Source: Bryobacterales bacterium
GTDB taxonomy: Bacteria; Acidobacteriota; Terriglobia; Bryobacterales; Bryobacteraceae
Reading direction: 5' to 3'
Assembly (NCBI GenBank): GCA_947446025.1
Contig: CANFEY010000034.1
Coordinates: 1-49,009, forward strand
DNA: 49,009 nucleotides
Made by a program: the position numbers and the translations under genes. The notes under the pieces are model-generated. The model saw only the letters and a program-made list of their open reading frames with translations. It did no database searches and was not told where the DNA came from. Every line of letters starts with the position of its first letter. Within the stretch, counting starts at the first letter, position 1. Positions 37,334 to 47,866 of this stretch are shown in pieces.

Positions 37334-38140
37334 TTGGGCTACGAAAATTGGATTGGGAAAACCGAGACGTGCCAGGACTTGATTACCCGATGGCCGCTGA
37401 CTGCACTGGCGGCGACGTTGGATCGCGAAGGGCCGGGGGAGATCGTGCCTCCGCTGTGGCATTGGTTGTATTTCTTGCCGGTGCATCGGCAGAGTGAGTT
37501 GGGTCGAGATGGGCACGGGCGGCGTGGCGAGTTCCTGCCGCCGGTGGAGCTGCCTCGGCGCATGTGGGCGGGGGGGCGGTTTGAATTTTTCGATGCGCTG
37601 CGGGTGGGGGATGAGCCGGAGCGCACGTCGACGATTTTGAGTGTGCAGGAGAAGCAGGGCCGTTCGGGGGCGCTGGTATTTGTCGTCGTGCGGCATGAGG
37701 TGCGGACGGAACGCGGCTTGGCGTTGAGCGAGGAGCACGATATCGTGTATCGCGAGCATGCGGCAGGGGACGCGCCGGTGCAAGAGGCTCCGCCGGATTT
37801 CGAGTGGGAACGCGTGGTGCATCCGGATGACGTGCTGCTGTTTCGCTACTCGGCGCTGACCTTCAACGGGCATCGGATTCACTACGATCGGCGGTATTGC
37901 ACGGGGGTGGAGCACTATCCGGGCCTGGTGGTGCATGGTCCGCTGGTGGCCACGATGCTGTTGGGGTTGGTGCCGGAGGCGGTGACGAAGTTCAGTTTCC
38001 GGGCGGTGAGTCCACTGTTCGACACGGAGGCGTTCCACGTGCGCGGGCGGCGCGAGGGCAACGGGGCTAGTCTATATGCTGGTACAGCGGCGGGACGGCT
38101 GGCCATGATGGCTTCTGCGGAGTTCGCTGCTCGTCGATAA
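37334..38140 (+). CDS. MaoC/HTD2-type acyl-CoA dehydratase
   Basis: The 268-residue protein is of the HTD2/mesaconyl-C4-CoA hydratase type. An N-terminal FAS1-like dehydratase half (WIGKTETCQDLITRWPLTALAATLDRE) and a C-terminal hot-dog half with the R-YSALTFNGHRIHYD motif near 195-208, whose Asn/His are the expected catalytic residues, then GLVVHGPLVATMLL. It hydrates or dehydrates a CoA thioester. The start is TTG with no clear Shine-Dalgarno sequence, and a TATCAT lies 6 bp upstream. Its 3' end overlaps the convergent DUF898-like gene by 74 bp, and both C-termini look intact. Confidence 0.85.
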   Translation: MGYENWIGKTETCQDLITRWPLTALAATLDREGPGEIVPPLWHWLYFLPVHRQSELGRDGHGRRGEFLPPVELPRRMWAGGRFEFFDALRVGDEPERTSTILSVQEKQGRSGALVFVVVRHEVRTERGLALSEEHDIVYREHAAGDAPVQEAPPDFEWERVVHPDDVLLFRYSALTFNGHRIHYDRRYCTGVEHYPGLVVHGPLVATMLLGLVPEAVTKFSFRAVSPLFDTEAFHVRGRREGNGASLYAGTAAGRLAMMASAEFAARR

Positions 38141-38810
38141 AGCCGTCCCAATCGGTATCGACGCCTCGGATCAGGACGATGTTGCCGATCAGCCAGCGTC
38201 CAAACCACAGGATGAGAAATGGCATGGGCACAATGAGGCAACTGCCCAGGGCTGTGACCAGGCCGCGCCACAGGAATTCAAGGCCGGTTGCGCGGAATTC
38301 GACGGCGATGCCGTCTCCTTTGATGTTGCGCGCCATCCATTGATACATGGCCACGGCGACCCAGGCCCAGCCGACGATGGTGATGCAGGATAGCAGCAGC
38401 GCTACATACCAGCCGAGCAAGTTGATGTAGGATCCAGTGAAGGCCAGATGCGGGCCGGGGTTCAGGCGGAGGTTGTAGACGAACCAGTTGAGCAGCATCA
38501 GAACGACGCCGCTGATGAGGACGTAGGTGAGGCCGAAGATGGCTGCCGGTGGATTGAGAGCGTTCTCTCCGAGCATGACCAGGAACAGCAACACGTGCCA
38601 GACGACGACTTCGCCGCCGGTGCCGCGGAACTCGGCTGTGCTGCCGTCGCTGAACGTCGTGTTGCGGCAGATCCAGCGGATCATTGCGGCGTTGACCCAG
38701 GCTAGGGGGATGGCGGCGAGCAGACCGGCGAGGATCGATGCGGCGATCCAGCCGAGGGTTTGCAGGGCTGAGCCGGTGAACTGGAGACGAACTTCGTGCC
38801 GAGCGGTCAT
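38067..38810 (-). CDS. DUF898 (YjgN-like) membrane protein, last gene of the dab operon
   Basis: ATG 38810 gives a 247-residue membrane protein starting MTARHEVRLQFTGSALQTLGW. Two related halves each have an L-x-FTGSxxxxLGWxxA-type segment and two or three helices (RLQFTGSALQTLGWIAAS and HLAFTGSYINLLGWYVAL), and extra-membrane WICRNTTFSDGSTAEFRGTGGE and WMARNIKGDGIAVEFRATGLE are clearly duplicated. This resembles the DUF898/YjgN family of unknown function. The ATG lies one base after the stop of the NuoN-type gene, making it part of the bicarbonate-uptake operon. It may be an accessory subunit (inference from position only). Confidence 0.7.
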   Translation of the reverse strand: MTARHEVRLQFTGSALQTLGWIAASILAGLLAAIPLAWVNAAMIRWICRNTTFSDGSTAEFRGTGGEVVVWHVLLFLVMLGENALNPPAAIFGLTYVLISGVVLMLLNWFVYNLRLNPGPHLAFTGSYINLLGWYVALLLSCITIVGWAWVAVAMYQWMARNIKGDGIAVEFRATGLEFLWRGLVTALGSCLIVPMPFLILWFGRWLIGNIVLIRGVDTDWDGFIDEQRTPQKPSWPAVPPLYQHID

Positions 38811-38811
38811 A

Positions 38812-40116
38812 TTATTCGAGGATCTTGGCAAGAGCGGCGGCGGCAGGAGCACGCAGGGCTATGGGGGCGCTGGGGAGCAGTCCGAATACGACGAGTGCAG
38901 CGACGGCGGCAGTTAACGGCCAGCGTTCGCGTGGGAATGCGTCGGGTACGGGCGAGACGGCGGACGGGGCGCGGCCCAGGAAGAGTGTGGAAAGCAGGCG
39001 GAGGATAGTGATCGCGTTGCATGCGGTGGCCACGGGAAGGGCCAAGCCGAGCCAGGGGTTGGATTGGAGCGCTCCATGGAAGAGCAAGTCTTCGGCGAGG
39101 AAGCCTAGCGTGCCGGGAATGCCGACGAGAGCGAGTCCGCACATGCCGAAGAGTACGGCAAGACGAGGGACGCGTGCTCCAAGCCCGAGAAAGCCGTGGG
39201 GATTTTCGACGGTCGCGTAGCGGACCTCAATCGCCCGATAGGCGGCCACCAGTCCAGTGCTGGCGAGGGCGACGACGATCCAGTGGAGCAGTGCGCCGGT
39301 GATGCCCGCTTCGTTGCGATTTTGAATGCCGGCGAGGATGAACGACGCCTGACTCACGGTGAGCAGGGCCAGGATGCGGCGGGGTTTGGTTTCGGCGAAG
39401 GCGGTGAAGGAAGCGTAGATGGCGGTGAAGAGTGCGATGGCTGCCATCCATGGGAGGGCCTCGCGGGCAACTTCGCTATAGCGGGGGATGGCGAAGCGGA
39501 TGATGAGGAAGGCCCCCAGGTGCCCGTTGAAGAGCAGCGCAGGGGCTTGCGGGGGGCCGGATTCAAAGGCGGAGGAGACCCACGCGTGGAAGGGGAAGGC
39601 TCCTTTTTTTACCAGCGCGGCGAACATCAGCAGGACGAAAATCCAGCGGCCATCGGTGCCTGTGGTCTCGAGAATTGCAGCGGTGCCCAACAAGAGCGCT
39701 CCGAGGGCCAATGCGATGCGTGGGCGGCTCCACAGGGGAGTGGGGTTCAAGGTCTGAAAGCAGTTACTGAAGAAAGGGGCGACGGTGATGGTCCAGGCGG
39801 CAAAGTAGAGCGTGAGAGAAGGAGCGGCGTAGGCGGCCATGGTTCCACCGAAGATCAGCAGCATTCCGGCGAGCGGCGGGCTTTGCACATCGCGGGGAGG
39901 CGCGCTGGCGAAGGTGATGAGGGCGACGGAGGAGAACAGCAGCATGGGGATGGCGCTGTAGGTTTCCATGCCGCTGGCCGCGGAGCTGATGGAGCAGGCG
40001 AGTGCGATGGCGGCGGCTGCAATGGCCCACCAGCGTGCGTGCGGGCCGTCTGTCTTGTAGACCGGAGTCGCGGCGAGGAGGGGAGCCGCGAATGAGCAGA
40101 TCAAGAGCGCCGTCAT
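38812..40116 (-). CDS. NuoM/NuoN-type proton-conducting subunit in dab operon
   Basis: This 434-residue protein is of the complex-I antiporter-like family (PF00361) with about 12-13 helices. The conserved lysine helix reads AALVKKGAFPFHAWVSSAFE, followed by the ETKPRRILALLTVSQASFILAG segment with a second conserved Lys and a late GLALVGIPGTLGFLAEDLL. It resembles NuoM/N more than NuoL and carries no quinone-oxidoreductase neighbours, so it is not part of a nuo operon. The start overlaps the NuoL-type gene by 4 bp. In characterised DAB systems one such subunit (DabB) suffices; a second is unusual. Confidence 0.82.
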   Translation of the reverse strand: MTALLICSFAAPLLAATPVYKTDGPHARWWAIAAAAIALACSISSAASGMETYSAIPMLLFSSVALITFASAPPRDVQSPPLAGMLLIFGGTMAAYAAPSLTLYFAAWTITVAPFFSNCFQTLNPTPLWSRPRIALALGALLLGTAAILETTGTDGRWIFVLLMFAALVKKGAFPFHAWVSSAFESGPPQAPALLFNGHLGAFLIIRFAIPRYSEVAREALPWMAAIALFTAIYASFTAFAETKPRRILALLTVSQASFILAGIQNRNEAGITGALLHWIVVALASTGLVAAYRAIEVRYATVENPHGFLGLGARVPRLAVLFGMCGLALVGIPGTLGFLAEDLLFHGALQSNPWLGLALPVATACNAITILRLLSTLFLGRAPSAVSPVPDAFPRERWPLTAAVAALVVFGLLPSAPIALRAPAAAALAKILE

Positions 40117-41471
40117 CGCGTCTCCGTTGCGGGGCGCGTGGCCGGGGCCGGGTCGCTTTCGGCGGGACGGGCTGGGCGCTCAAAGTAGAGCAAAATCCAG
40201 GCCAGATTGAGTCCGGGTTCGATCAGGAAGCGGTCGGTGAGAGAGTCGAGGAAGCCGCGTTCGAGTCCGGCGCGATAGAGCCAAGCGCGGGCCGGAGCGG
40301 GAACGAGTTTTTCCCAGTGCAGGCCGGTAGGTTCAAGGTGCCCCCCGGCGGCGGCGTGGAGGCCGTGGTGGTCATGCAGCAGCGAAGGCGCTCGCAGGAA
40401 CTGCATGGTGCGGACGCAGGCATGTCCCACGATGTGCAGCAGAGCGAGCCAAGTAAAGCCGAAGCCGATTTCCATGAAGATGACGCCGAGTTGGGTCATG
40501 GCGGCGTAGGCGAGGGAGGTCTTGACGTCGTTCGATGTGCGATGCGCGAGGGTGCCCAGCAGCGCGGTGGCGCAACCCACAAGGACTACGGCGGCGGCCG
40601 CGAAGGGGGCCTGGCGCAAGACGGGTTCAGAGCGGAGCAGAAGGTAAGCCCCGATGTGTACGGAAATGGCTCCGTAGAAAATCGCGCTGGAAGGCGTGGG
40701 GCCTTCCATGGCTCGCGGCAACCAGCCGGAGAAGGGGACTTGCGCGGATTTACCGGAGGCTCCGAGTAGCAGCAGCAATCCTGCGAGCGTGGCGGCACCG
40801 GTGTTCAGAGCCGAGGTTTGCGCGGGCCAAACTCCTTGGAAGAGCGTCGGATAAAGCGCGGAACCGGCGCTATGATGGAGTACGAAGACGGCAGTCATGA
40901 GGCCGAGGTCGGCGATGCGATAGGTGGCAAAGACGCGGATCGCGTTGCGCACGGGTTCGCGGCGGCCGGTGAAGAAACCGATGAGGAAGACTGAGGTGAA
41001 GCCCACCAGCTCCCATCCGCCCAGCAGCAGGTCGTAGGATCCGGCGGTGAAGACCAGCAGCGCGCCGAACGCGAACAGGTGCATCAAGAGGAAGAAGCGG
41101 AGGAAGCCCACATCGCGGTGCAGGTAGCGCACGGAAAAGGAACCAGTGATCCCGACCAGGGCTACGGTCAGCAAGATCAGCGGCAGGGACAGGCGGTCGA
41201 CGAAGATGAGCAGCGGGAAGGAATATTCGCCCACGCGGAACCAGGCTCCGTGCATGACGTAGAGGGAGTCCTGTCCGGCGCGCAGCATCAGCACGCACAA
41301 CACAACCACGGCGGCGGCCATGGCGGAGTACAGCGCCGCGGCGGTGCGGGCGATGAAGCGTTCGGGCGGGGTCCAGCCGAGCAGCCACAGCGTCGCGATG
41401 GCCAGGAAGAGGACACCGGGGGCCACCACGATGGCGGTGAGCAACGGTTCCAAAATGAAGAGTGTGTCCAT
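40113..41471 (-). CDS. dabB: DabB: NuoL-type membrane subunit of the inorganic-carbon transporter
   Basis: The 452-residue protein is NuoL-like, with about 12-13 helices. The conserved charged residues are present: Glu in LGGWELVGFTSVFLIGFF, Lys in LLGASGKSAQVPFSGWLPRAMEGPTPSS, and Lys in NDVKTSLAYAAMTQLGVIF. The usual HAATMV segment is altered to YGAISVHIGAY. In DabAB/MpsAB systems this subunit supplies cation flux that energises the DabA carbonic-anhydrase-like site. It starts two bases after the dabA stop and overlaps the next gene by 4 bp. Only about 450 residues: it lacks the long amphipathic C-terminal arm of NuoL, as expected for DabB. Confidence 0.88.
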   Translation of the reverse strand: MDTLFILEPLLTAIVVAPGVLFLAIATLWLLGWTPPERFIARTAAALYSAMAAAVVVLCVLMLRAGQDSLYVMHGAWFRVGEYSFPLLIFVDRLSLPLILLTVALVGITGSFSVRYLHRDVGFLRFFLLMHLFAFGALLVFTAGSYDLLLGGWELVGFTSVFLIGFFTGRREPVRNAIRVFATYRIADLGLMTAVFVLHHSAGSALYPTLFQGVWPAQTSALNTGAATLAGLLLLLGASGKSAQVPFSGWLPRAMEGPTPSSAIFYGAISVHIGAYLLLRSEPVLRQAPFAAAAVVLVGCATALLGTLAHRTSNDVKTSLAYAAMTQLGVIFMEIGFGFTWLALLHIVGHACVRTMQFLRAPSLLHDHHGLHAAAGGHLEPTGLHWEKLVPAPARAWLYRAGLERGFLDSLTDRFLIEPGLNLAWILLYFERPARPAESDPAPATRPATETR

Positions 41472-41473
41472 TT

Positions 41474-44344
41474 TTATCGGACTCCCGCCAGACTTTCAAT
41501 GCGGGCCACGGGCAAGTGTTCCATATGGCCCTGGTACCATTCTACGGACGAAGCAGCGGTAGGCAAGGTTTCATCGGTGCCGCTGACAGGTTCAAATACG
41601 CCACTTCCACGATACATCTGGATACCGGCGCCGGCTGGATCGAGGACGGCAAGACGGATCCAGCGGTTCTCCAGAAATTCGGTCAACAGCGGACTCGCGT
41701 GGATGGTGGTCAACACGCGTTGCGGCGTGGATTCGACAATAAACAGGTTACGCACTGGCTCGTGGATTTCGACCATCTGCCAGGGGAGGCCTGTGCGCAG
41801 ATCGCTCTCATAGCCGTTCATGACGCCGTGCAAGCCGGTGATGTTGTGCGGGAGCTTAGTTCCGCAGCCGTAGCCTTCGTTATCGACGAACGAGAAGTAG
41901 TATTCGAGGCTGATGCCGCCGCAGACGGGGATGACGGCTCCCAGGACCTTGGCCAGGTTGCTATCGTCGGGATCAATGGTTGGGTCGTAGGAAACCAGAA
42001 AGGCGCGGCGGTCGAAGAAGAGGCCCTTGGTGGCGGCGCGGCGTCCGACGATGGTCACGGCGTTGGTGCAGTGGCCGTATTCGGGGCGGGGTTCGGCCAG
42101 ATGCTCGGCGCGTTCCTGCATGTGGCGAAGGGCGGCGGCGGGGGTGATGGTGCCGGACGCGGCTTCGAAGAGGCGGGCGCGTTCATGGGCGCTCCACTGG
42201 CGGGCGAGATCGAGAGAGGCGCGCACGCGGGCTAGCTCCTGGGTGTGCGTGGAGGGGACCAGGTGGAGGTCCAGCAGGTCGGCGTCGTCGTTGCAGGTAT
42301 CGTGGTAGCCTCCGACGAACCAGGTGTCTTGCGGGATGTAGACGCCTTTTTCAAGCAAGCCGGCCCGGACTTGGGGGTGGTTCGCCATGGCGGCGAAGAG
42401 CCGGGCATTGGGGCCGCCGCGGCGGCCGCCGCAGGCTCCACAATCGTGGGCGGATTCGTGAGGGTTGTTCAGGCTGGTGGAACCGTGGCCTAAAATGAGC
42501 ACCAGGCGGGACATGTCTTTTACCAGACCGGCGGCTGCCAGAACGCCCGCCACGCGTTCCACTTTTTCCGTGATGGTGAAGCCGGGCAGCAACCCTTCGG
42601 GGTGCTGCTCGGGAGCGCGGTGGAAGGCGAGTTCGGTGCGTGGCTCCGGCAGGAGCCACTGGTTCAACTGGTGGATCAAACGAGCGTAGTGGCGCGGCGA
42701 AAGTACACGAGCCGCGAGCGGGATCAAGGAAAACACGCCGAGTACGACGGTGCTGAGCCAGCCCCGGAAGAGAGTGCGTGTAGAGATACCCGCTCCGCGC
42801 TGCCAGCGGGAGAGGCGTTTGCGCAGCAGCCGGCGGCGTGCCAAAGTGTGGGCGTGACCTTCGGCGGGGCGCTCATGCACCTTATGTTGGGGCTTGACGA
42901 CCACGGGGCACAGTGCCACGCCGTGCGCATCGTCCACGCCGCAGTAATCCATGGCGACGCCGAAGAAGCCTGCCGCGCCAAAGGTTTCAATGGTGGGGTC
43001 GAGTTCTTCCCATTGGCGGCGAATGGATTCCTCGCGCTCATCAATGCAGAAAAAAGCCTGGGCCGAAGGCCGCTTGGCGGCCGGCGGGCCGGTCCCGCGC
43101 TGGCGGTGTTGACACAAAGGAAGCAGGATCTGGCGTTCGTGGCGGCGCTCATAAGCGAGTTGCAGGATTCGGCGGCGCTCCAGATCACCGAATTCAAACA
43201 CCTCGCGGTGAAACAGGGTCATTTGCCGGCGCGGCAGGTTTTCCAGAACCTCGGCTGGGATGCCTGCGCTTTTCGCGGCTTGAAAGAAGGTAGCGTCGCG
43301 CAAAAGACGCTGGGCCTTGGACGACTTGCGCGCGATGGGTGACTGCCAGATGCGTGGATGCCCGTCCACTCCGGAGACCGCGGCCAGGACCAGTGTCATG
43401 CGGACGGCCAGGAATTCCATCAGCACGGAGGGAAGAGGTTGGTGGGGTGCGAGTTCAGGCTCCTCCTGTAAACGCCAGATCATACCGGCCCAGCCGGGGA
43501 GCGCGAGGAGTTCACCGCGCAGGAAGTTTTCCCAATCATGGCTGACGGCACCGAGAGCACGGAGCGCTTCACCCACAATGGTTTCCGCGTTCAGCTGGGC
43601 CGCATCGTGCCAGCGCAGGATCACCGGCAAGAGATGGAGTCCCTTGGGCAAGACGCAGTACGGCTGCCGAAGAGCGGCGTAAGCCGCGTGCAGAAACCCT
43701 CGCTCCCGCTCCGGCATGGGCCAATAGGCAACGCCCTGATCCAGGAACGCGCCCGCAAGCCGGGTGAGCAGTGGATTCACCATGCCATCCAAGTCGATGC
43801 CGAAGTGCGCCAGCATGCCGTCGTGAGGACGCTGAGGGATTTGCGGATCACGCTCAGACTCCAGTTCGGGGCGGGAGCAGGCAGAGAACAGGCGGCTGTC
43901 CGCGGCGGACTCGATCAGGCCGCCTTCTGAGAGATGCCACTCGATGGTGTCCTCCGCCGTGGGGCGCATGCCGGGCAGAATCATCGCTTGACGCAGCCCT
44001 CGCCTGTCCAGGGGAGACGGTCCTGTAAGGATGGGTACGTTTGGCTCCAGGTCGAGGATCGCGGTGATGTCTTCGGTACGAATCCGGCCGTTGGCGATTT
44101 GGGCGCGGAACGCCTCCTCGGTCATATAGGGCTGGGTGCCGTAAATGGCGGATGCCTCGACCACGGCCTGCTCAAAGGGCAAGTGCTGGAAGGCGTGCAG
44201 TGTGTTGTGGTGGATAAAGACGCCGATGGGGCCTTGGGCGGGCAATAAGTGGGCCAAGTGGTTCACCACATGGCGCAAGTGTCCGTGGTCCCGGTCGGCT
44301 GTGTAAAAGATGGAGACGGCCTCGGTGCTTCGATTATAGCTCAT
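41474..44344 (-). CDS. dabA: DabA: DUF2309 (UPF0753) inorganic-carbon transporter subunit
   Basis: The 956-residue protein matches DabA. N-terminal IHHNTLHAFQHLPFEQAV is the family signature; the beta-carbonic-anhydrase-like metal site is Cys433-x-Asp435 (AFFCIDERE), His620 (LILGHGSTSLNNPHE) and Cys635 (HDCGACGG). DabA is cytosolic and membrane-associated, converting CO2 to bicarbonate unidirectionally, driven by DabB. It is first in a four-gene operon. The start is divergent from terC, 34 bp from that gene's start. It is longer than the roughly 830-residue Halothiobacillus protein. In heterotrophs the pair supplies bicarbonate for anaplerosis, fatty-acid and carbamoyl-phosphate synthesis. 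Confidence 0.92.
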   Translation of the reverse strand: MSYNRSTEAVSIFYTADRDHGHLRHVVNHLAHLLPAQGPIGVFIHHNTLHAFQHLPFEQAVVEASAIYGTQPYMTEEAFRAQIANGRIRTEDITAILDLEPNVPILTGPSPLDRRGLRQAMILPGMRPTAEDTIEWHLSEGGLIESAADSRLFSACSRPELESERDPQIPQRPHDGMLAHFGIDLDGMVNPLLTRLAGAFLDQGVAYWPMPERERGFLHAAYAALRQPYCVLPKGLHLLPVILRWHDAAQLNAETIVGEALRALGAVSHDWENFLRGELLALPGWAGMIWRLQEEPELAPHQPLPSVLMEFLAVRMTLVLAAVSGVDGHPRIWQSPIARKSSKAQRLLRDATFFQAAKSAGIPAEVLENLPRRQMTLFHREVFEFGDLERRRILQLAYERRHERQILLPLCQHRQRGTGPPAAKRPSAQAFFCIDEREESIRRQWEELDPTIETFGAAGFFGVAMDYCGVDDAHGVALCPVVVKPQHKVHERPAEGHAHTLARRRLLRKRLSRWQRGAGISTRTLFRGWLSTVVLGVFSLIPLAARVLSPRHYARLIHQLNQWLLPEPRTELAFHRAPEQHPEGLLPGFTITEKVERVAGVLAAAGLVKDMSRLVLILGHGSTSLNNPHESAHDCGACGGRRGGPNARLFAAMANHPQVRAGLLEKGVYIPQDTWFVGGYHDTCNDDADLLDLHLVPSTHTQELARVRASLDLARQWSAHERARLFEAASGTITPAAALRHMQERAEHLAEPRPEYGHCTNAVTIVGRRAATKGLFFDRRAFLVSYDPTIDPDDSNLAKVLGAVIPVCGGISLEYYFSFVDNEGYGCGTKLPHNITGLHGVMNGYESDLRTGLPWQMVEIHEPVRNLFIVESTPQRVLTTIHASPLLTEFLENRWIRLAVLDPAGAGIQMYRGSGVFEPVSGTDETLPTAASSVEWYQGHMEHLPVARIESLAGVR

Positions 44345-44378
44345 ACGGATTCAGGACATAATGGTAGGAACTGCTCCC

Positions 44379-45131
44379 ATGTCCTTTCTGACCTCCCCTG
44401 AATCCTGGATCGCGCTGCTCACGCTGACGCTGCTTGAAATTGTGCTGGGTGTGGACAACATCGTGTTCGTCAGCATCCTTGCCGGGAAATTGCCGAGGGC
44501 GCAGCAGGCGAAGGCTCGGACGGTGGGGCTGGCGCTGGCGATGGGCACACGGATTCTGCTGCTGCTGTCATTGACCTGGGTGATGGGGCTGACGCAGCCG
44601 CTGTTTACCGCGATGGATCACGGGGTCTCAGGGCGCGATTTGATCCTTTTAACTGGCGGCCTGTTCTTGATGTGGAAGAGCACGCGTGAGATTCACGAGC
44701 GGCTGGAGGGGCAGGAGGAGACGCAGCACGCGACGAAGAAGACGTATTCCTTCGCGGGGGTTCTGGTTCAGATCGCACTGCTGGACATCGTTTTTTCGCT
44801 GGATTCGGTGATCACCGCGGTGGGCATGTCGGGGGAAGTTCCCGTGATGGTCCTTGCCATCATGATCGCTGTGGCGTTTATGATGTTCACGTCGGGGATG
44901 GTGAGCGCCTTTATCGATAAGCACCCGACGATCAAGGTGCTGGCGCTGAGTTTCTTGCTGCTGATTGGGACGGCCTTGATCGCGGAGGGATTTCATCAGG
45001 AGATCCCGAAGGGGTACATTTACTTCGCCATGGCGTTCAGCGTGTTTGTGGAGATGATCAACCTGCGGGTGCGCAAGAGCGGTGCCCCGGTGGATTTGCA
45101 TCCATCGGGGCGGGATCCGGAGAATCAGTAG
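44379..45131 (+). CDS. TerC/Alx-family membrane protein
   Basis: From ATG 44379 the protein has 250 residues and starts MSFLTSPESWIALLTL, the usual family N-terminus; ATG 44361 with a closer AGGA would add six residues. About seven helices carry the family motifs EIVLGVDNIVFVSILAGKLP and ALLDIVFSLDSVITAVGM, whose acidic residues in the membrane are thought to handle metal ions (Mn2+ in Alx and TerC homologues). It is divergent from dabA with only 34 bp between, so expression may be co-regulated. A dispersed repeat and a strong hairpin follow the stop. Confidence 0.9.
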   Translation: MSFLTSPESWIALLTLTLLEIVLGVDNIVFVSILAGKLPRAQQAKARTVGLALAMGTRILLLLSLTWVMGLTQPLFTAMDHGVSGRDLILLTGGLFLMWKSTREIHERLEGQEETQHATKKTYSFAGVLVQIALLDIVFSLDSVITAVGMSGEVPVMVLAIMIAVAFMMFTSGMVSAFIDKHPTIKVLALSFLLLIGTALIAEGFHQEIPKGYIYFAMAFSVFVEMINLRVRKSGAPVDLHPSGRDPENQ

Positions 45132-45231: not shown

Positions 45232-47724
45232 CTACCCGAGGGCGGACCTCAGGTGGGACATGCGCTTTTCGCGGTCGGTGGCGAAGCGGTGGATGGCGGT
45301 TTCGATGGACTTGGCGTCCAGGTGTGCTTCGGCGATTACGTCGGGTTCGAGGCCGCCGGTTAGCCACTGGTTGTCCCAGTCCGAGGTGAGCGAGTATTCG
45401 TCGGTCATGGGACCCACGTTCTTCAGGGGCCACATGCGGCGGGTGCCGGTGCTGACGATCATCAAGTCGTAGTAGGCTTCGGGGGGCAGGACTGAGTTGC
45501 GGTATTCCTCAGACTGGCGGTCGAAGAGTTCTTCGCTGATCGCCGCAATCACCTTGACGTTGATGCCGGCGGCTTCCAGCTTGGGCAGCGTGTTCACCAG
45601 GTTCACTGTTGAGCTGGAACCTTGTGTGACGACGTAGCCGTGGCGTGGGCCGGGGGCGAAGTCACGGATGACGTAGAAGCCTTTGGCGGCTGCCATGAGA
45701 TCGGCGTCGGCGAACTTGGAGCGGTCGGCGACAGGGAAATCCGGGCGCGCGACTTCTAGCGAGATGATGCCGACCTTTTGCTCGCGCGCGGCGATTTCCG
45801 CGGCGGCGAAGTAGGCGGGGGCGACGTCGTTGTAATCCCAGAAGCTGAGGTGGATGGTCTGGTTGCGGGGGAATAGCTTCCACACTTGCGGGCTGAAGAT
45901 GCCGAAGTGAGTACGGGCGTCGGCGGCGGTTTCGGGGCCGGAGTGGCCGGCGAGAATGTGCAGCACGCCCATGCGGAAGACGCTGTCCTGATTCTGCTGG
46001 CTCCACACGCGCGCGGGGAGATACATGAGCGGAGTGAAGGCTCCGTAGGTTCCGCTAATGGCCCACACGCCGGCGAACTTGGTGGGATCGACGGAGGCAT
46101 TTTGTCCGACCAGGCCGATCGCCGTGGAGACGTTGCCCGCTTCCTGGATCGCCGCCTTGAGGCGCGTTCCCGCAGGGTTGGTTTCGGGGTCGTAGTGGCC
46201 CCACAGGTTGCCGTGTTCTAAGTTGATGGACTCCGAAAGATCCGCGGCGATGGTGAGGAAGCGGTTGTCGGTGACGTAGTTCATCCACTTCAGGATTTCG
46301 GAGATGCCTCGGCGCGTGCCTGCGACTTCGCCGGGTTTGCGGAAGAGGGTGACGCTGACTTCTTTCTGCTCGCCGGAGACGGGGTTCTTCACCGTGATCT
46401 TCTGCGGCTCGATGGGCAGGTTCTTGACGCGCAGGCGCTCGTCCTGGAACGGGTCGATCGTGTTCTGGACACGCAGCGGGAAGTTGTCGGTGATGGTGTC
46501 ACCGATGGAGACCAAGCGGTCCGCCAGCCAGTCGCCGAGGCCGTCCTTGTCGAGCACGGACATCGCAACGTCCATGTTGGTCTTGAATTGGATGAGGCGG
46601 GCGCGGGTGTCTTTCGGTGCGCCCTTCTTGATGTCGACGAACTTGACGCCGAAGCGCTTCTCAAACGTTTTCGCGAGCGTGAGGAAGTGCTCGGAGTTCA
46701 TCTTGAAGCCGTAGGGATGGCTGGGGTAGCCGACGATGGGCGTCTTCAGCTTGGTGGGCCACCAACCTTTCACGGTCTTGCCGATCAGCACCATGGGGCG
46801 GCGGTCGGTGGGGTCCCAGTCTTCCATCGCCTTCATCGCGGCGACCACTTGTTTGTAGTCGTTGCCGTTCTTGATGGTGAAGACGTTCCAGCCGTAGGAG
46901 GTCCATTGATCGACCAGGTTGTAGCCGGTAAACTTAGCGTCGATGACGCCGCCGATGAGCGAATCGTCGATGCCGGCGTTGTTGTCGGAGACCCAGATGC
47001 GCAGGCGCTTGCCGTTCTTGAGCGCGAGGGCTTGCGTCTTCAATTCCTGCGCGTGGCCTTCGCAGAGGGCGAATTCGCCTTCGAAGGCGATGACTTTGGG
47101 TCCGGTAATGGGGGAGCCCATCACGTCCCAGAACGCGGCTTTACCCGCGGCGAGGGCGAGTCCGACGCCGGAGGGTCCGCCGTTCACGTCATTGGTGACA
47201 TCGATGGATTCGGCGTGGCCCGAGAGCGAGCGGATGCCTCGGGCTTTCGCCTGTTCGAACAGCGGATGATCGCTGAGGTTGTTGTCTTGGAGCAGTGTTG
47301 CCAGTGCGCCCGCGCCGCGGCGGAACCCGAGCGCGTCCACGCTCAGCATGGCGACTTCGGGATCGACGAAATACTTGCGGTCGCCGGTGGCCTTGAACTT
47401 ACGCTCCATCGCTTCGCCCATGGCGATCCACAGGCCGTAGCAGGTGGGGATGCAGTGTCCGCCGGCGAGCATGAATTTATCGCAGCCGGGGTGCTTGGGG
47501 CGGCGGTAGTCGTAGCGCAGGCCGCCGAACTCGGGTCCCGCGAGGTGGACGGCGACGTTGTAGGGGGTGTAGGCAAGCGGTCCGCCGTAGTGGCCTGTCT
47601 GGGCGTAGTTGCCGAGCAGGGACAGCGTCATGGCGGTGAGGAAGCCGACGTCTTCGAGGCGTTGCTGGTCAAAGGGTTCGGTGAGCGGCTTGACTTGAGT
47701 CGGCTTGCTGGAAAAAGAAGACAA
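45232..47724 (-). CDS. Transketolase-family thiamine diphosphate enzyme, unusually long
   Basis: TTG 47724 is chosen because GGAGGT lies 6 nt upstream; ATG 47766 has none. The 830-residue protein shows transketolase features: a GHYGGPL start, the His of LAGGHCIPTCYGLW, a thiamine-binding region reading EGEFALCEGH...VSDNN (Glu instead of the usual Asp in GDG), and a pyrimidine domain with ILAGHSGPETAADART. The C-terminal domain matches transketolase (KVIAAISEELFDRQSEEYRNSVLP). Ordinary transketolases are about 660 residues; the extra length is mainly in the middle. The reaction is presumably ketol transfer, but a specialised substrate is possible. Confidence 0.83.
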   Translation of the reverse strand: MSSFSSKPTQVKPLTEPFDQQRLEDVGFLTAMTLSLLGNYAQTGHYGGPLAYTPYNVAVHLAGPEFGGLRYDYRRPKHPGCDKFMLAGGHCIPTCYGLWIAMGEAMERKFKATGDRKYFVDPEVAMLSVDALGFRRGAGALATLLQDNNLSDHPLFEQAKARGIRSLSGHAESIDVTNDVNGGPSGVGLALAAGKAAFWDVMGSPITGPKVIAFEGEFALCEGHAQELKTQALALKNGKRLRIWVSDNNAGIDDSLIGGVIDAKFTGYNLVDQWTSYGWNVFTIKNGNDYKQVVAAMKAMEDWDPTDRRPMVLIGKTVKGWWPTKLKTPIVGYPSHPYGFKMNSEHFLTLAKTFEKRFGVKFVDIKKGAPKDTRARLIQFKTNMDVAMSVLDKDGLGDWLADRLVSIGDTITDNFPLRVQNTIDPFQDERLRVKNLPIEPQKITVKNPVSGEQKEVSVTLFRKPGEVAGTRRGISEILKWMNYVTDNRFLTIAADLSESINLEHGNLWGHYDPETNPAGTRLKAAIQEAGNVSTAIGLVGQNASVDPTKFAGVWAISGTYGAFTPLMYLPARVWSQQNQDSVFRMGVLHILAGHSGPETAADARTHFGIFSPQVWKLFPRNQTIHLSFWDYNDVAPAYFAAAEIAAREQKVGIISLEVARPDFPVADRSKFADADLMAAAKGFYVIRDFAPGPRHGYVVTQGSSSTVNLVNTLPKLEAAGINVKVIAAISEELFDRQSEEYRNSVLPPEAYYDLMIVSTGTRRMWPLKNVGPMTDEYSLTSDWDNQWLTGGLEPDVIAEAHLDAKSIETAIHRFATDREKRMSHLRSALG

Positions 47725-47866
47725 GGTACAACCTCCATTACACGTTTCGGCGATGCGATCAAGCATAGCCCAAATGCGGGCAGGCCGGACGGGAGTCGAG
47801 GCCGATGGGTGATCGAATTCCTAGTGTAGTACGAATTGGTCAGCGCGCACTTGGTACAGGCAGAAT

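Follow-up and report, generated by a model that had tools for sequence, protein, structure and literature searches.

Among the described systems closest to the one considered here is DAB2 (DabA2–DabB2) of Halothiobacillus neapolitanus (PDB 9rd0, PMC13144422), which takes up CO2 and in which the coupling acid lies on a hydrophobic membrane finger of DabA. In that paper, replacement of this residue, Glu444, by Ala or Gln abolishes DAB2 activity; Leu658, reported as strictly conserved among 150 homologues, stands in for the transition-state Gln/His of beta-carbonic anhydrases (beta-CAs) and is thought to contribute to the low basal activity of DAB2, and a change of Leu658 to Gln did not let DAB2 hydrate CO2 on its own. 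The subject here is the dabA–dabB–G3 trio carried by a contig of Bryobacterales bacterium (CANFEY010000034.1; ‘the window’ designates the whole analysed stretch of 49,009 nucleotides), where G3 is the NuoM-like gene that follows dabB. The trio seems to be an under-described three-protein form of DabA-type CO2-hydrating enzyme, with a proton route shared by two membrane proteins instead of contained in one, which offers a clear test of the way enzymes of this kind are driven.

The gene arrangement has been in print since 2017. Clade C of the COGNAT analysis (PMC5700660) comprises neighbourhoods in which COG3002 lies upstream of a nuoL homologue and NuoM (COG1008) and SulP (COG0659) also occur; it thus resembles the trio in having dabA before a nuoL-like gene, a NuoM-like gene and, apparently often, SulP nearby. 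It probably includes the trio systems, and the SulP–DabA–Mrp type discussed below would fit the same description. In the part of that paper seen, the number of membrane subunits is tied to ion number, and the DabA homologue is taken for the enzyme of an unknown exergonic reaction, proposed to drive ion export; unlike the present work, that part holds no analysis of helices, coupling residues or fusions. The original prediction made for this locus, in which known DabAB/MpsAB systems have a single NuoL-like partner, does not take these NuoM-bearing neighbourhoods into account. MpsAB of Staphylococcus aureus, compared here by description only, also has DabA and DabB homologues in a heterotroph; unlike the trio, it is described as MpsAB or MpsABC. 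Literature searches among open-licence PMC papers returned no report of the residue pattern and helix changes of the trio, and the joint change of its parts appears to be undescribed.

The three-gene locus

The trio and the features discussed below have the following positions in the window.

41474..44344, minus strand: dabA, zinc beta-carbonic-anhydrase-like subunit (PF10070), 956 amino acids (aa); Pfam DabA E 1.2e-228; zinc ligands and dyad C433, D435, R437, H620, C635
42641..42790, minus strand: DabA membrane finger, residues 519–568; no Asp/Glu in the columns aligned to DabA2 434–454
42071..42073, minus strand: His758 of DabA, aligned with DabA2 Leu658 (the Gln/His transition-state site of beta-CAs)
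40113..41471, minus strand: dabB, NuoL-like, helices 1–11 and a C-terminal tail, 452 aa
41010..41012, minus strand: DabB helix-5 Glu154, kept in the three-gene form
40143..40346, minus strand: DabB tail, residues 376–443; helices 12–15 absent, helix 405–431 weakly like the start of the NuoL lateral helix
38812..40116, minus strand: G3, NuoM-fold subunit, 434 aa
39061..39168, minus strand: G3 broken helix 12 (317–352), acid pair Glu342/Asp343; acid at 342 or 343 in 64/64 G3
38818..39477, minus strand: G3 second half (helices 9–14), the portion retained in DabB–G3 fusions

The Pfam DabA match is full length (761.8 bits, profile 1–747 of 747), and Proton_antipo_M is matched by both the dabB and G3 proteins (E 4.7e-38 and 1.9e-32). 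As originally predicted, four genes adjoin one another, the fourth encoding a DUF898-like membrane protein; the coordinates confirm a 2-bp gap between dabA and dabB, a 4-bp overlap between dabB and G3 and a 1-bp gap between G3 and the DUF898-like gene.

Conservation of the trio

Among 100 relatives, a close G3 is found in nine other genomes (E 9.3e-69 or lower; next match 2.5e-26). DabA accompanies G3 in every one of them, truncated by the contig end in G040, and the genes always run dabA–dabB–G3, the DabB of L039, missed by the gene picker, having been read separately. A G3 profile run against GTDB contigs yielded 71 loci, whose record titles include Acidobacteria, Verrucomicrobia, Planctomycetota, Bacteroidetes, Elusimicrobia and Myxococcales. 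When two loci where the contig ends (L117, L118) and an ordinary NDH-like one (L122) are set aside, 68 are usable. In 67 of these G3 comes immediately after dabB, and in the remaining one (L113) the two are fused. The contig also carries a DabA match at 64 loci; at the other four (L063, L077, L082, L101) it ends first. Since these loci were found using G3 itself, the count tests the company of G3 and not how often DabA occurs without it. Some matches are incomplete or split: dabA is cut by a contig end in L090, L092, L093, L111 and L115; L104 holds only a 76-aa DabA fragment; DabA is in four pieces in L105 and in two open reading frames (ORFs) in L072, as is DabB in L073; and in L066 the contig likewise ends before the dabA of the matched copy, the DabA fragment there being part of its second copy. 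Because the first three genes recur in the same order across phyla, a chance arrangement is dismissed: dabA–dabB–G3 is a conserved three-gene unit, and the pairing of DabA with two antiporter-like subunits, as originally predicted, is kept in relatives. The trio system is uncommon. Any DabA at all is found in 7 of 347 Acidobacteriota genomes (five trios, the rest two-gene systems) and in 8 of 240 genomes of the phylum of the L062 genome (two trios, the rest two-gene).

Several of these loci have features of their own. L066 carries two dabB–G3 pairs in opposite orientation on a single 6.8-kb contig. L067 (KB906767.1, Acidobacteriaceae bacterium KBS 96), not titled as a metagenome-assembled genome (MAG), has the trio and is a possible cultured source. 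The genome G448 (L061/L167 and L166; record title Prosthecobacter) holds two DabA, one from a trio and one of the two-gene type that carries the finger Glu, the contig of the latter being too short to show its dabB, and offers a natural side-by-side comparison of both DabA types. A short gene, typically of 113–118 aa, precedes dabA in most of 11 loci (L067, L075, L078, L084, L085, L094, L098, L103, L106, L110, L120); that of L094, the single one tested, has an ArsR-type helix–turn–helix. A histidine-kinase cluster touches 18 loci, and a cluster of five has a response regulator (one member tested). In seven relatives inspected, the gene after G3 encodes a HisKA_3 histidine kinase (five), a cupin (one) or a protein with no Pfam match (one).

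DabA: an intact zinc site and an altered finger

The zinc ligands Cys, His and Cys and the Asp–Arg dyad are present in 62/62 trio DabA, as in DAB2, and the ligands are also invariant in nine aligned trio DabA; Cys433, Asp435, His620 and Cys635 of the window protein are intact, as first noted. The residue equivalent to DabA2 His585 is likewise kept in 60/62, and the hydrophobic character of the finger is also common to DAB2 and the trio. Other positions differ from DAB2. The position of Glu444 is Glu in 18/18 two-gene DabA and Asp in 7/7 of the SulP–Mrp type; it is Ala, Thr, Ser, Val, Leu or Phe in the trio (acid 0/62) and Gln or His in the fused type described below (acid 0/7; this residue was inspected after the fusions had been found), so that a finger acid is present in 25/25 other DabA versus none of the 62 trio and seven fused ones. 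No Asp or Glu occurs anywhere in the columns of DabA2 434–454 in the 57 trio DabA tested. The Leu658 position, Leu in 25/25 others, is His in 61/62 trio DabA (one Pro) and in 7/7 of the fused type, and the Ser356 position is Glu in 60/62 trio DabA.

For these counts, the two-gene set consists of DabA2, eight of 123 plasmid records hand-picked for taxonomic spread, and nine loci. The DabA table excludes genome_contigs rows shorter than 800 aa and L167–L169 (same genomes as L061, L113 and L112); the 571-aa partial L146 was kept, and L095 and L157 are one sequence. In a DabA tree of 94 rows, built with the finger columns omitted, the finger acid changes once, on a branch with an SH-aLRT (Shimodaira–Hasegawa-like approximate likelihood-ratio test) value of 100 that splits trio and fused DabA (69) from two-gene and SulP–Mrp DabA (25). 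The tree is a quick one; its program flagged long branches, mostly of two-gene rows, and a single suspicious join, that of can_Halobac and L165. On this tree the traits changed together once; the association is strong and unreplicated.

DabB and G3: complementary losses

DabB of the trio shares with DabB2 the NuoL-like helices 1–11 and differs in what follows. Beyond the helix-11 His, two-gene DabB have 156–194 residues with three to four hydrophobic segments (8/8), or 151–205 with three to four in eight more. The trio DabB have 86–121 residues there, with no hydrophobic segment in 55/64 and one in 9/64, and five further trio DabB have 85–125, with none (three) or one (two); in the window the tail is 102 aa long, without a hydrophobic segment. 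An AlphaFold2 model of the window protein (43-row alignment; predicted local distance difference test score, pLDDT, 87.8) has eleven membrane helices and, at lower confidence, a C-terminal helix at 405–431, and 48 of the 50 structure matches listed for it are NuoL-type chains; 9rd0_B is not one of those 50, to which no weight is given. From sequence and model, trio DabB thus ends after NuoL helix 11 and lacks helices 12–15 of DabB2. There is a suggestion that its tail corresponds to the start of the NuoL lateral helix (E 0.004, unfiltered scan; VIA range to NuoL residue 579). What trio DabB has, unlike DabB2, is a helix-5 Glu (77/77 trio and fused versus 0/16 two-gene proteins; also in 3/3 NuoL-like proteins of the SulP–Mrp type). 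This Glu and the helix-7 Lys, Lys241 in the window, are each present in 65/65 DabB.

G3, the subunit that DAB2 does not have, is modelled in the window as a full 14-helix NuoM-type fold with broken helices 7 and 12. Short relatives (e.g. L034, 380 aa) had suggested a protein without its first helices, and this candidate was rejected on the model. The fold, the two broken helices and the helix-12 acid are those of NuoM/Nqo13 and MrpD, whereas other residues of these proteins have been lost: G3 has no helix-5 Glu, helix-10 His or helix-11 His (0/64 each) and the helix-12 acid in 64/64, while 22 NuoM/MrpD-type references have the helix-5 Glu in 21, the helix-10 His in 22, the helix-11 His in 19 and the helix-12 Glu in 19. 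The helix-7 Lys is mostly Arg and the helix-8 Lys mostly His. The window protein has Thr109, Lys170, His199, Gln256 and Val282 at the helix-5, -7, -8, -10 and -11 sites, so that only the helix-7 Lys is kept. The 64 G3 are those of the window and of 63 loci (L080, L104, L105, L108, L113, L117, L118 and L122 left out).

Fusions of DabB with a NuoM-type half

Two kinds of fusion were found, which sit at separate places on the DabA tree. In L113, DabB is joined to G3 helices ∼8–14 in one 676-aa frame. This fusion is known from one MAG contig, in frame, and may be an assembly error; in the near relative G704, dabB and G3 are separate genes. A 928-aa fusion listed for G704 in the hit table proved on inspection to be two separate ORFs and is not counted. 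Seven genomes of the family of L113 (two of them nearly identical) carry a separate, much diverged class with one long protein (622–624 aa in six genomes, while the seventh has a longer ORF), in which DabB helices 1–11 and the tail are followed by a NuoM-type half with helices 9–13. This half is matched best by G3 (49.7 bits), closely followed by ordinary NuoM (43.5 bits), and by none of eight two-gene DabB.

A proposed shared proton route and its alternatives

According to a complex I review (PMC10212512), the N-terminal repeat of antiporter-like subunits forms the cytosolic half-channel and the C-terminal repeat the periplasmic one, with proton hops at the subunit interface that connect helix 12 of NuoM and helix 5 of NuoL. 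In the trio, the cytosolic half and the helix-5 Glu belong to DabB, which has no helix 12, and the helix-12 acid belongs to G3, which has no helix-5 Glu. One shared path is the simplest reading. By analogy with DAB2, which serves as the model for complex formation, for direction and for CO2 as substrate, the trio would be a three-subunit carbonic anhydrase linked to the proton motive force (pmf). DabA, with its zinc site intact and a beta-CA-like His, would hydrate CO2 in the cytoplasm. DabB would provide the cytoplasmic half of a NuoL-type proton channel (helices 1–11, helix-5 Glu154, helix-7 Lys241), without helices for a periplasmic half of its own, and G3 the periplasmic half (helices 9–13, helix-12 acid Glu342/Asp343). 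Protons would pass from the periplasm to G3 helix 12, across the G3–DabB interface to DabB helix 5, and into the cytoplasm, the interface hop from helix-12 acid to helix-5 Glu being of the kind put forward for NuoM and NuoL. If the G3–DabB route supplies the proton path in this way, the finger acid of DabA would not be needed and would hence have been lost. On whether the trio is a proton-coupled carbonic anhydrase in which one composite path, shared by DabB and G3, drives CO2 hydration, our judgement is evenly divided. A further step, held tentatively and with more doubt than belief, is that the trio represents a separate class of proton-coupled carbonic anhydrase, a minimal redox-free system driven by the helix-12-to-helix-5 inter-subunit hop, in which an active site with the classical beta-CA His is perhaps competent, even reversible.

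Several observations count against a single shared path. The SulP–DabA–Mrp clusters (family f3, same order; seven loci among L043–L050) resemble the trio in their DabA zinc site and in the NuoL- and NuoM-like genes nearby, and 3/3 of the NuoL-like proteins examined have the helix-5 Glu, yet these clusters keep the finger Asp and Leu658 in 7/7; neither a NuoM-like gene nearby nor the helix-5 Glu alone thus predicts loss of the finger acid. Their NuoL-like protein also differs from trio DabB, with 675–726 aa and the later hydrophobic segments (3/3). Helix 7 of G3 is still positive (Arg in 62 and Lys in one of 64) and helix 8 has His in 58/64, as does ND5 at the same position (PMC10212512); judged from these residues, G3 may have a weak path of its own. 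The L113 fusion is without most of the G3 helix-8 region, so that no more than helices 9–14 can be shared by every form. For DabB relatives the helix counts come from hydropathy, and the tail block of the DabB model has a pLDDT of ∼60–84. Finally, all co-varying traits lie on one branch and represent one historical event, not replicates.

The original prediction was of two ion-flux paths per DabA. Two complete paths, through DabB and G3, would give a higher ion-to-CO2 ratio, and both proteins do carry Proton_antipo_M, G3 having the full NuoM fold with a helix-7 Arg/Lys and, in most cases, a helix-8 His. Against this, DabB has no helices 12–15, the finger acid that replaces those helices in DAB2 is absent from trio DabA, G3 has lost the helix-5 Glu, helix-10 His and helix-11 His, and the fusions retain only the second half of G3; each subunit looks like the complement of the other, and two paths are improbable. 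It is rather unlikely that G3 is a structural filler sealing DabB at the site of the lost helices 12–15 and that DabA is a pmf-independent or freely reversible carbonic anhydrase aided by His758. The near-invariant transition-state His of trio and fused DabA, where all others have Leu, speaks for a filler, as does the part ascribed to Leu658 in the low basal activity of DAB2 (PMC13144422). A filler would not require G3 to conserve its helix-12 acid, or DabB its helix-5 Glu and helix-7 Lys, and the failure of the Leu658 to Gln change to give unaided CO2 hydration in DAB2, reported in the same paper, goes against a simple reading of the trio His.

The system might also run in reverse, with bicarbonate dehydration or another exergonic reaction driving ion export (cf. 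COGNAT 2017), or be coupled to Na+, as argued for MpsAB. The beta-CA-like His could serve both directions, and SulP-family permeases, possible carriers of bicarbonate or other anions, are in a BLAST cluster spanning 28 of the 68 trio loci (Pfam SulP is matched by three of the four members tested, the fourth being a short ORF without any match); no SulP was found among nine window proteins scanned around the trio. The zinc site and the sequence relationship to DAB2, which takes up CO2, speak against this reading, and reversal or Na+ coupling is judged quite unlikely. That G3 is an incidental neighbour is very improbable indeed: descent alone can conserve gene clusters, but the association holds in 68/68 usable loci titled to several phyla, and two different fusions and the complementary losses go with it.

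The SulP–Mrp type has a further feature of its own: at L043, an operon-like run comprises DabA, SulP, MnhE, MbhD/E, MnhB, a NuoK-like gene and three NuoL/M/N-type genes, i.e. SulP and a near-complete Mrp antiporter.

The fourth gene and the genomic context

The gene adjoining G3 has the following position.

38067..38810, minus strand: DUF898-like membrane protein, 247 aa counted from an inner ATG; adjoins G3, judged outside the system

Its Pfam DUF898 match (E 4.1e-4, 20 bits) is under the gathering cut-off of 28 bits. The protein has no phmmer match at E 1e-3 or better in the 71 G3 loci. It occurs in 5 of 61 genomes, the window’s own included, and the closest other copy (64%, in G014) is on contig 27, while the G014 trio is on contig 8. 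The DUF898-like gene was therefore rejected as a subunit and is judged an incidental neighbour, not a shared part. Of the four-gene order whose conservation was to be checked, the dabA–dabB–G3 part stands (9/9 relatives and 68/68 usable loci, separate and fused together) and the DUF898-like part does not.

Around the four genes, dabA and a divergent TerC-family gene (44361–45131, plus strand) are separated by 16 bp between the listed start codons (44345–44360), which leaves scant promoter room. A gene with a FAS1_DH_region match (37334–38140, plus strand) has a 74-bp tail-to-tail overlap with the 3′ end of the DUF898-like gene, and an 844-aa protein encoded at 45232–47766 (minus strand) has only weak matches to transketolase N- and C-terminal domains. 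The window genome (4.43 Mb, 99.88% complete) has a single DabA and a single beta-carbonic anhydrase match. With no match to the RuBisCO large subunit in this genome, the host is probably a heterotroph, as had been proposed.

Significance

In the DAB2 structure the coupling acid is on the DabA finger and the low basal activity is linked partly to Leu658, and the trio family has neither. Its zinc site is intact, and an additional subunit has an acid at a matching kind of position, which bears directly on how proton flux is coupled to CO2 hydration. With its three proteins, the trio would also be a redox-free model for the proton step between subunits, from NuoM to NuoL, that has been proposed for complex I, and the natural fusions of the 622-aa class would cut such a model to two chains.

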